Shown: piece after piece, positions 8,499-13,365 of the stretch | Layout: each line of letters begins with the position of its first letter | How positions within the stretch are numbered: the stretch's first letter is position 1 | Source of the DNA: Sphingobacteriales bacterium | GTDB taxonomy: Bacteria > Bacteroidota > Bacteroidia > Chitinophagales > JADJOU01 | Assembly (NCBI GenBank): GCA_021297855.1 | Contig: JAJTHM010000019.1 | Span: 1 to 32,066 of the forward strand | Direction of reading: 5' to 3' | Length of the DNA stretch: 32,066 bases | The notes under the pieces: model-generated | What the model was told of the DNA's origin: nothing | Database searches by the model: none | The model's input: the letters and a program-made list of their open reading frames with translations, nothing else | Made by a program: the position numbers and the translations under genes

Positions 8499-8592
8499 TA
8501 TTGATTAATTTCTTTTGTTTATTAATATTTTGCGATAGTCATATAAGAATTTCCATAGAATCAAATCTTACTAAACCTCATATTCCAACGAC

Positions 8593-8600
8593 CAAAGATA
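8593..8600 (-). promoter_or_regulatory. -7 element TATCTTTG of the T9SS type B/PorP operon
   Basis: On the minus strand TATCTTTG matches the Bacteroidota -7 consensus exactly, inside a very A/T-rich stretch. No clear TTTG stands 20-21 nt upstream. A start near 8586 gives a leader of about 88 nt before the ATG at 8498. Confidence 0.5.
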
Positions 8601-8742
8601 CAAATTATTTTAAAAAATTAAGTGATTAATAATAAAACTATTCCTTATTTAAATTAAAATACCCCCGCTATATTTCAAAAAACTACCCATGGTAGGAAAT
8701 AAATCAATGTCATAACTACCGAATAAATCCTTGAAATCTATT

Positions 8743-8784
8743 CATTTTGTCATAATTAAAGACAATATTTCGCCATTTTGTCAT
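8743..8784 (+). repeat. Direct repeat CATTTTGTCAT upstream of dnaK
   Basis: CATTTTGTCAT occurs at 8743-8753 and again at 8774-8784, 31 bp (about three helical turns) apart. A third TGTCAT core is at 8708-8713. The first copy also forms an inverted repeat with a 9-nt spacer, TTGTC (8747-8751) / GACAA (8761-8765). Same-face spacing suggests a regulator binding site; which regulator is unknown. Confidence 0.45.
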
Positions 8785-8800
8785 TGGCATATCAATTGCT
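8784..8800 (+). promoter_or_regulatory. Sigma-54-like -24/-12 promoter for dnaK
   Basis: TTGGCAT (8784-8790) and TTGCT (8796-8800) reproduce the sigma-54 consensus TTGGCAY-N5-TTGCW with the correct GG-to-GC spacing of 12. The predicted start near 8811 leaves a ~20-nt leader before the dnaK ATG. No good TAnnTTTG element is present in the 150 bp before dnaK. A chance match cannot be excluded. Confidence 0.45.
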
Positions 8801-8829
8801 ACAGATAGTTTAAAATAAAATACAACAAA

Positions 8830-10734
8830 ATGGGAAAAATAATAGGAATAGACTTAGGTACTACCAATTCATGCGTTTCAGTCATTGAGGGGAACGAGCC
8901 GGTAGTCATAGCGAACGATGAGGGTAGAAGAACGACTCCTTCCATCGTAGCATTTTTAGAAAATGGGGAAAGGAAAGTGGGAGACCCCGCCAAGCGTCAA
9001 GCGATCACCAATCCAACTAAAACCCTACACAGCGTCAAGCGATTTATAGGAAGAAGGTTCAGTGAGCAAGAAAAAGACGCGGCTAAAATGCCATATAAGG
9101 TAGTCAAAGGAGACAATGATTCTATCAAAATAGATATAGATGGCAGAATGTATTCACCTCAAGAAATCGCGGCCATGGTTCTTCAAAAAATGAAAAAATC
9201 AGCCGAAGATTTTCTAGGAACAGAGGTGACAGAAGCGGTCATAACAGTGCCTGCGTATTTTAATGACTCTCAGCGTCAAGCTACGAAAGAGGCAGGAGAA
9301 ATAGCGGGTCTTAAAGTGATGCGTATAGTTAATGAGCCCACTGCTGCGGCCTTGGCCTATGGCTTGGAGAAAAAAGACAAAGATATGCGAATCGCGGTCT
9401 TCGATTTAGGGGGTGGTACATTTGATGTTTCCATTTTAGATCTAGGAGGCGGGGTATTTGAAGTGAAGTCTACCAATGGGGATACAAGCCTAGGTGGTGA
9501 TGATTTTGACCAAGTAATCATAGACTGGCTGGCGAATGAGTTCAAATCATCAGACAATATAGATTTACGAAAAGATCCAATGGCGCTTCAGAGATTAAAA
9601 GAAGCTGCTGAAAAAACAAAGATTGAATTATCTAGTTCTAGTGAAGCGGAAATTAATCTTCCTTACATCACGGCCATCGATGGTGTGCCAAGGCACTTGG
9701 TTAAAAAATTATCCAGAGCTAAATTTGAACAGCTAGCAGATACTCTTTTTCAAAGAACATTGGAGCCTTGTAAACAGGCACTAAAGGATGCCAATATGAG
9801 CACAAGCGACATTGATGAGGTTATCTTAGTAGGAGGTTCTACCCGTATACCAAAAGTAGCGGAAATGGTTGAGCAATTCTTTGGCAAAAAACCTTCAAAA
9901 GGAGTGAATCCTGACGAGGTGGTAGCTATGGGTGCCGCTATCCAAGGAGGTATTATCAGTGGCGATGTCACAGATGATATCGTACTAGTCGATGTCACAC
10001 CTCTATCATTAGGTATCGAGACAATGGGTTCTGTGATGACTAGAATCATCGATTCCAACACGACCATCCCTACCAAGAAATCTCAAGTATTCACCACTGC
10101 TGCCGATAACCAACCTTCTGTAGAGATTCATATTCTTCAAGGCGAGAGAACCAAAGCTGCAGACAATAGAACATTGGGCAAATTTCACTTGGATTCCATT
10201 CCTCCTGCTCAAAGAGGCACTCCGCAAATAGAAGTTACATTTGACATAGATGCCAATGGCATAGTGAAAGTGTCTGCAAAAGATAAAGGAACAGGAAAAG
10301 AACAGTCTATAAGAATTGAGGCATCGACATCACTTTCAAAAGATGATATAGAAAAAATGAAGGCAGAAGCAAAAGCGAACGAAGAAAACGATAAGAAAGA
10401 AAGAGAGCGAATAGAAATGATGAATGCAGCCGACAGCTTAGTTTTCCAGACGGAGAAGCAATTGACTGAATTTGGAGATAAGATATCTGCAGATAAAAAA
10501 GCAACCATTGAGTCTGCAAAAGATGCTCTAAAATCAGCGGTAGATCAGAAAATCTATGATGGTATCGAAGGCTTGACAAAAGCACTAAATGATGCATGGG
10601 CTGCTGCGAGTGAAGATATGCAAAAAGCACAGCAAGCACAAGGTGGTTCGGAACAAGCAAATGCGGGAAATAATCAACAAGATGGAAACTCTTCTGGTGA
10701 TGCAGAAGATGTAGAATTTGAAGAAGTGAAGTAA
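8830..10734 (+). CDS. dnaK: Chaperone DnaK (Hsp70)
   Basis: A 634-aa cytosolic Hsp70 that binds exposed hydrophobic peptides in an ATP-dependent cycle with DnaJ and GrpE. The nucleotide-binding domain starts with [14 protein letters not shown]. The phosphate-loop motif [16 protein letters not shown] and adenosine motif [11 protein letters not shown] follow. The interdomain linker and substrate domain begin at [14 protein letters not shown] (about residue 385). The C-terminus is a low-complexity Q/G/N tail ending EDVEFEEVK, the usual form. Length is normal. dnaJ and grpE are not adjacent; the gene stands alone between the divergent T9SS operon and a strong terminator. Control may involve the sigma-54-like site and repeats just upstream. 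Confidence 0.98.
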
Positions 10735-12718: not shown

Positions 12719-12742
12719 CTAGAATTTATCATAAATATCTAG
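12719..12742. repeat. Inverted repeat at the end of the AbiEii gene
   Basis: CTAGAATTTA-TCA-TAAATATCTAG forms a hairpin with one bulged base that covers the stop codon of the AbiEii gene. No U-run follows on the minus strand, so it is a weak terminator candidate or an mRNA-end stabiliser. Confidence 0.35.
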
Positions 12743-13365
12743 GCTAAATAATCTCGAACGGCCTTTTGAATTCCTGATTTTACCGTTTCCCATGTTTGAC
12801 CATTCAATGAAACGGGGTCTTCAGATTCATCTGCATCTACAAAGTAAGTGAGGGCATAGGGAATAGAAATAGGAATACTATTGTTAACATACTTTTTCTT
12901 GTATGAAATTATAAAATCTTCAACAGAATAGTAGTTCAATAATTCAATAATATCATAAAAATCCTTTTTGACACCTCTTTTAAGAATTGCTAGAGATTTC
13001 ATAGCCATGATATCTTGGTCTCCAAACATTCTAATGCCATCTACAACAATAGTTTCAGATATTTTATTAAAAAAATGGTGTCTCACTAAATCAATTTTTA
13101 CATTATCAATAAATCCAAAAACACCGATTGGATTTGAATTGTTTTTATAACTAAAAGTTTGAAAATTTCGCTCTAAGATTTCTATAATCTGATCATTTTC
13201 AAATTCTACTGTACTAAATAAATCTATATCGACAGAGATTCGGTGACCGTATCGTAAAGATAAATTTGTACCACCGACTAAATAAAAGTTCTCCAGTTCT
13301 TTAATTTGGAAAATATTTTTTAATATGTCCAGTGTTCCTTCTGCGACTGTGCTTGTATATAACAT
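12739..13365 (-). CDS. AbiEii/AbiGii-type nucleotidyltransferase toxin
   Basis: A 208-aa protein of the AbiEii/AbiGii nucleotidyltransferase family, the toxin side of type IV-like toxin-antitoxin and abortive-infection systems. The motif FYLVGGTNLSLRYGHR followed by SVDIDLFS (about residues 27-50) gives the GG(T)xLxLR and DxD metal-binding motifs. A third acidic strand is in VKIDLVRHHF, and DIMAMKSLAILKRGVKKDFYD is the downstream family helix. It overlaps the upstream small gene by 46 bp, so the two are probably co-translated. Codon use is more A/T-rich than the flanking sugar-nucleotide genes, which fits transfer. Whether it is active is unknown; the motifs are intact. Confidence 0.85.
   Translation of the reverse strand: MLYTSTVAEGTLDILKNIFQIKELENFYLVGGTNLSLRYGHRISVDIDLFSTVEFENDQIIEILERNFQTFSYKNNSNPIGVFGFIDNVKIDLVRHHFFNKISETIVVDGIRMFGDQDIMAMKSLAILKRGVKKDFYDIIELLNYYSVEDFIISYKKKYVNNSIPISIPYALTYFVDADESEDPVSLNGQTWETVKSGIQKAVRDYLA

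Follow-up and report, generated by a model that had tools for sequence, protein, structure and literature searches.

A predicted sigma-54 promoter in front of dnaK points to a possible enhancer-controlled chaperone regulon in Bacteroidota

The window, by which we mean the whole 32,066-nucleotide stretch analyzed, is contig C4 of the 3.1-Mb genome of a Sphingobacteriales bacterium. Its plus strand carries dnaK (8830 to 10734, with the ATG at 8830), which encodes an Hsp70 protein of 634 amino acids with a PF00012 domain. Divergently from dnaK, the minus strand between 4133 and 8498 encodes two CHU_C proteins, which bear the type IX secretion signal, with a PorP/SprF protein between them; type IX secretion genes are found in the window. 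On the other side of dnaK, an AbiEii-type nucleotidyltransferase (12739 to 13365; PF08843, a type IV toxin-antitoxin family) is encoded near lyase and sugar-epimerase genes.

The original prediction placed a sigma-54-like promoter, TTGGCAT-N5-TTGCT with −24/−12 spacing, in front of dnaK. We found an exact match at 8784 to 8800 of the plus strand, consisting of a −24 element TTGGCAT (8784 to 8790), assigned by pattern match, matrix score, and conservation, the spacer ATCAA (8791 to 8795), and a −12 element TTGCT (8796 to 8800). TGGC at −24 and TTGC at −12 are thus present at exactly the fixed spacing, and 29 nt separate the end of the element from the dnaK ATG. The usual geometry of sigma-54 promoters puts the transcription start 12 nt past the C of the −12 box. 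With C8799 as this base, transcription would start near 8811 (8810 to 8812, plus strand), about 19 nt before the ATG and in agreement with the roughly 20 nt originally proposed. The remark that no good TAnnTTTG box precedes dnaK also held, as none is present in 8499 to 8829.

The exact pattern occurs only once in the window. To rank sites, we used a matrix of 66 named and 22 same-order dnaK sites (the two sets are defined below), from which the site of the window was left out. This site nevertheless came first in the window with 17.5 bits, as compared to 10.3 bits for the runner-up, while the maxima of 20 first-order Markov windows averaged 12.7 and reached 16.8 at most. Moreover, the element lies in a footprint conserved within the genus: in four species, 46 of the 56 columns from 8743 to 8798 are invariant, as compared to 37 of the other 144 upstream columns. 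A fifth species of the genus (L082, a 62% complete genome) lacks this 56-bp block. The TTGC of the −12 box is not kept in the congeners, three of which have TTGT, and the part that is kept corresponds to TGGCA-N6-TTG.

When the element was looked for in relatives, it was found in front of dnaK in most of them. In the same-order set, dnaK was matched in 37 of the 40 relatives, the window's genome included, and one match fell short of the start, leaving 36 loci. TGGCA-N6-TTG lies within 150 nt before the dnaK start in 30 of these (24 of 30 and 6 of 6 loci, the window's genome included), while shuffles of the 30 upstreams yielded a mean of 0.2 and a maximum of 2. The named set comprised the best 80 of 588 dnaK relatives, 78 of them with at least 100 nt of upstream sequence. 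Its titles include Chitinophagaceae, Saprospiraceae, Mucilaginibacter, Flavobacterium, Bacteroidales, and Porphyromonas, and the top rows among these best 80 are Chitinophagales and Saprospiraceae MAGs with 72 to 74% identity, from which the bacterium would belong to the Bacteroidota, in or near this order. Here, the motif precedes dnaK in 67 of the 78 Bacteroidota loci (shuffles: mean 0.4, largest 2). The alternative spacings N4, N5, N7, and N8 occurred at most once per set, and only one of 304 other gene starts from the same loci carried TGGCA-N6-TTG. The motif is absent within 150 nt of dnaK in 6 of the 36 same-order and 11 of the 78 named loci.

In 30 further genomes, the motif was never found directly before dnaK; in the family f22, the gene ahead of dnaK is hsp20, and the site is found upstream of this gene. 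In this other family, represented by 28 genomes, the canonical TTGGCAY-N5-TTGC was present before 27 of the 28 hsp20-dnaK units (26 detected by script, together with L336, whose site falls inside an over-long ORF call; the identity of one hsp20 was checked with Pfam). The 28th unit, from the genome G331, carries the one-mismatch form TTGGTACGGTCATTGC before hsp20-dnaK. Two loci from two other families (L341 and L342) have no hsp20 upstream of dnaK; the best site is CTGGCACGATTCCTGA, 43 nt away, in the former and TTGGCACGAGTAATGC, 125 nt away, in the latter, and neither was counted as a match.

The −12 box varies among lineages, with TTGC in the window and in f22, TTGT in three congeners, and TTGA in most relatives. 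Among the 66 named sites, the box most often ends in A (51 sites), followed by T (11), C (3), and G (1), and their consensus reads tTGGCA(C/T)A-N3-ATTGA. The C at −12 is nearly invariant in textbook sigma-54 promoters, and the −12 box of pspA is TTGT, not TTGC. Judged from the aligned sites, the −12 box common in the phylum departs from the sigma-54 consensus, ending in A or T in most relatives, and the TTGC of the window is a local state, TGGCA-N6-TTG being the conserved portion.

Within the 3.1-Mb genome, TTGGCAN6TTGCW occurs 11 times, as compared to once for the reversed pattern; nine of these sites lie within ORFs, while the other two precede dnaK and htpG, whose product belongs to the Hsp90 family. 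The looser TGGCN7TTGCW has 57 sites (7 reversed), and among the 52 inspected, the intergenic ones with a gene downstream were again only those of dnaK and htpG. TTGGCAYN5TTG has 31 sites (9 reversed); 30 were inspected and three were intergenic, in front of dnaK, htpG, and, at a distance of 113 nt, a 463-amino acid ORF (L113). An element of this type also precedes groES. In the 30 best-scoring groES upstreams of 40 genomes, TGGCAY-N6-TG was found in 21 and not in the other 9, as compared to 0.2 in Markov sequences, and four alternative spacings gave 0 or 1. The groES gene of the window's genome has CTGGCATGGAATCTGAT upstream.

The sequence above the −24 element contains repeats, with copies of TGTCA starting at 8708, 8748, and 8779, and GACAA at 8761. 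The proximal copy, CCATTTTGTCAT (8773 to 8784, plus strand), is a candidate activator half-site that shares T8784 with the −24 element and is invariant in four congeners. The distal candidate enhancer site (8743 to 8765, plus strand) is composed of CATTTTGTCAT followed by GACAA, which gives the inverted repeat TTGTC-N9-GACAA, and CATTTTGTCAT is repeated at 8774 to 8784. The additional TGTCA at 8708 to 8712 of the plus strand may be there by chance.

We counted TGNCA (TGTCA, TGACA, TGCCA, or TGGCA) over the 130 nt that precede the −24 box. The order (n = 28), named (n = 70), and f22 (n = 28) sets contain 3.2, 2.9, and 2.0 copies per upstream, as compared to 0.66, 0.59, and 0.51 expected, and at least two copies are present in 27 of 28, 64 of 70, and 18 of 28 upstreams, respectively, versus 3.8, 8.7, and 3.0 expected. 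The most frequent pair in the named set is TGNCA-N3-TGNCA (27 of 70 versus 0.3 expected), which in the order set ties with a pair separated by a 35-nt gap (7 of 28); in f22, an equal period is seen as GTCA-N4-GTCA (15 of 28 versus 0.13 expected). The htpG upstream of the window's genome reads TGTCA-ATT-TGTCA, and all 30 groES upstreams have at least two TGNCA copies (6.5 expected). We take these repeats to be a likely candidate enhancer. The stricter wording TTGTCA-N{0,30}-TTGGCAY-N5-TTGCW was found in 7 of 148 phylum genomes, namely, the window's genome (dnaK and htpG) and six others with single matches, one of which (G127:C24:102873) is an hsp20-dnaK promoter, as judged by adjacency to the dnaK match. 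By these counts, neither the strict TTGC form nor the TTGTCA wording is more than local, and conservation rests in the looser TGGCA-N6-TTG and TGNCA.

The A-ending form of the element was searched for in 59 genomes of the order, where TTGGCAYAN3ATTGA has 59 sites in 33 genomes, as compared to 9 for the reversed pattern. Two of these are dnaK sites; of the 57 others examined, 23 lie inside long ORFs and 34 do not. The genes behind the 34 include dnaK (6), lon (4), and clpB (1), with one lon and clpB identified by Pfam and the remaining genes named by eye. As a separate observation, many of the 34 sites precede non-chaperone genes and, by eye, have no TGNCA. What looks like a second class, TTGGCAYA-N3-ATTGAA, precedes exported, small, or thioredoxin-like proteins (L222, L223, L219, L220, L270, and others), likewise without TGNCA by eye, and such sites are perhaps targets of another activator. 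In the window's genome, rpoN itself (on C39) is preceded by ATGGCACAATCTTTGA (L052:2266-2281), which ends 17 nt before the ATG and follows TATATTTG, a sigma-A-like box; rpoN may thus be partly self-controlled.

The original prediction hinged on the presence of rpoN, and we found a match in the window's genome (C39:9273, E = 2e-50). The protein has the three Pfam sigma-54 domains AID, CBD, and DBD, and its residues 17 to 485 of 487, among them the ARRTVAKYRE box, can be aligned with sigma-54 chains of solved structure. Enhancer-binding proteins are encoded as well: among seven PF00158 matches in the genome, two are strong (E < 1e-68), and we refer to them as EBP1 and EBP2. The presence of rpoN and activators, the strict spacing, the conservation in several orders, and the like element before htpG, groES, and, in relatives, lon and clpB all support a promoter of the sigma-54 type for dnaK, and 8784 to 8800 is very probably such a promoter.

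EBP1 is a PspF-like protein of 412 amino acids (C31:7291-8529, corresponding to L050:4292-5530), with PF00158 at residues 13 to 179, HTH_8 (a Fis-type HTH) at 370 to 405, and no receiver. Its AAA+ domain carries a GSFTGA loop and is not preceded by an N-terminal regulatory domain, and 107 poorly conserved residues lie between the AAA+ lid and the HTH. The protein has no recognizable sensor domain. EBP1 has a best match in all 40 relatives (54 to 100% identity, three partial). Among the 21 orthologues compared, the LGIS[ED]RTLYRK motif of the HTH is present in 21 and GxFTGA in 20; one EBP1 orthologue carries a GSFTSA loop. In 8 of the 40 relatives, many of whose genomes are fragmented, EBP1 is followed at a distance of 1.7 to 5.9 kb by groES, encoded on the same strand of the same contig, while in the window's genome groES (C63) is on a different contig. 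Twenty EBP1 loci were compared, comprising the eight with nearby groES, fetched on purpose, and twelve others. We found that EBP1 comes after miaB in 18 of them and that the genes downstream include lptE (17 loci) and secG (14 loci); the eight chosen loci all reach groES, and seven reach groEL within the stretch. Based on this gene order, it is reasonably probable that EBP1 is the activator of the dnaK promoter.

In E. coli, the AAA+ activator PspF, which has no N-terminal regulatory domain, serves the sigma-54 promoter of the stress operon psp. EBP1 shares this architecture, and PspF chains are among its PDB relatives. It differs from PspF in the 107-residue stretch between the AAA+ lid and the HTH, in its proposed targets, which are cytosolic chaperones, and in that no PspA-type inhibitor was found among the four EBP1 neighbors scanned in the window's genome. 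In Myxococcus, HsfA is an activator of the sigma-54 type that acts on the heat-shock protease gene lonD; HsfA is a response regulator, whereas EBP1 has no receiver.

Since EBP1 is tied to the chaperones by gene order, the sigma-54 promoter might instead be opened by another activator, such as EBP2 (L051:4543-5910, on C111), in which case the chaperones would answer a two-component signal. EBP2 combines a receiver with AAA+ and HTH domains, and second activators at its match level are present in most of the 40 relatives. However, its contact loop reads GSFTSA instead of GxFTGA, and on this ground EBP2 may be unable to act on sigma-54, although one EBP1 orthologue has the same loop. In addition, the neighbors of EBP2 resemble, by eye, a signal peptidase and an RND pump and not chaperones, with groES synteny having been examined for EBP1 alone. 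We regard an activator other than EBP1 acting on this sigma-54 promoter as unlikely.

It is less probable still that the element is the promoter of a different sigma factor, either ECF or a sigma-A variant, that shares TGGCA-N6-TTG. The −12 box, which is TTGA and not TTGC in most lineages, would agree with this, as would the genome G331 (98% complete), the only one of 296 phylum genomes in which no rpoN match was found and which carries a near-canonical element. In G331, either rpoN was lost, possibly recently, or it is missing from the assembly, or the element is independent of RpoN. On the other hand, the fixed spacing and TTGGCAY fit sigma-54, the f22 sites are canonical in 27 of 28 cases, and the rpoN of the window's genome has ATGGCACAATCTTTGA just before its ATG. 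Furthermore, 295 of the 296 genomes have an rpoN match, and because of this, rpoN and the motif cannot be cross-tabulated.

The element could also be an operator or another kind of site, with transcription starting elsewhere, since TGGCA also fits the TGNCA half-site, to which a repeat-binding protein could attach. We consider this very improbable. Half-sites of CIRCE (TTAGCACTC-N9-GAGTGCTAA), searched for as TTAGCAC or GAGTGCTAA, were found in none of 108 dnaK upstreams; TAnnTTTG was present in 7 of these 108 upstreams (150 nt), as compared to 7.4 in shuffles, and thus shows no excess; and the spacing of TGGCA-N6-TTG is fixed. Last, a chance match is hardly conceivable, for although the pattern with two mismatches allowed is not in excess in the window (9 matches versus 12.2 expected), conservation before dnaK and the genus footprint rule it out.

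A link between sigma-54 and the chaperones of Bacteroidota is already in print as a prediction. A study from 2025 (PMC12316311) reported that predicted sigma-54 promoters are enriched for DnaK, DnaJ, GrpE, GroES, and GroEL in Bacteroidota, with HSP90 and protease COGs also represented and predicted sigma-54 chaperone promoters in Planctomycetota too, and it cites a Blattabacterium genome paper (its reference 80) for sigma-54-dependent grpE and groES. The sigma factor, target genes, and phylum are the same as in our case. Thus, the original notion that sigma-54 control of dnaK would be unusual for this phylum has to be given up, as most of the dnaK upstreams that we examined carry the element and the enrichment had been reported earlier (PMC12316311). 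While this premise of rarity was wrong, the observation itself is sound and points to a circuit spread through the phylum.

According to the portions of PMC12316311 considered here, activator specificities were not available for all organisms and only activators with the GAFTGA motif were retained; taken literally, such a filter would miss EBP1 with its GSFTGA loop. The same portions describe no TTGA form of the −12 box, no upstream repeats, and no chaperone activator. What is apparently new are the mostly TTGA-type −12 box, the upstream TGNCA repeats, and the gene of a receiver-less activator in a miaB-EBP1-lptE-secG cluster. Neither the activator nor the TGNCA repeats nor the TTGA form was the subject of a title or abstract among the open-access papers considered. 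The main text of PMC3162934 does not contain "Bacteroid," "dnaK," or "groES," and a table in it shows the COG class that contains chaperones as over-represented. The main texts of three papers on B. thetaiotaomicron (PMC7366714, PMC10994844, and PMC12596196) do not contain "rpoN," and the portion of PMC10434189 considered here holds nothing on the question of rpoN and chaperones.

Taken as a whole, we consider it quite likely that 8784 to 8800 is a sigma-54 promoter that drives dnaK as part of a chaperone regulon, with EBP1 as its most likely activator. This regulon would include dnaK or hsp20-dnaK, groES-groEL, and htpG, in relatives also lon and clpB, and its genes would be expected to depend on RpoN and to be induced by heat. 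RpoN-polymerase would bind 8784 to 8800 and stay closed, and a hexameric AAA+ activator seated on the TGNCA repeats (8743 to 8783) would open the promoter using ATP, so that dnaK transcription would begin near 8811. EBP1, whose gene is flanked by miaB upstream and lptE-secG downstream and is close to groES-groEL in some relatives, would be this activator. As a guess, EBP1 might be controlled by a partner such as free chaperone, and it may be held off by the very chaperones that it induces.

Sigma-32 and HrcA/CIRCE control the same heat-shock genes, the former being of another sigma family and the latter acting by negative control. The dnaK genes examined differ from the HrcA/CIRCE type in that their 108 upstreams have no CIRCE half-site. 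Tentatively, and with somewhat more doubt than confidence, one might extend the model so that the cytosolic heat-shock response of Bacteroidota is a single sigma-54 regulon replacing sigma-32/HrcA, in which EBP1, as a dedicated activator lacking a receiver, reads TGNCA-N3-TGNCA enhancers and the −12 box is shifted to TTGA. Because no sigma-A box is above chance at dnaK, even basal DnaK would then be RpoN-dependent, and the need of basal DnaK for RpoN could explain the presence of rpoN in nearly all of the phylum genomes.

How Bacteroidota switch on their chaperones is not explained in the literature examined. Sigma-54 promoters are opened at the expense of ATP and stay inactive unless an activator is present; thus, if the model is true, the core chaperones would be under strict enhancer control. 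With one activator gene and one short repeat, heat-shock control in this phylum, a major one in the gut and the environment, would then become directly testable, and rpoN would gain a housekeeping role in Bacteroidota.
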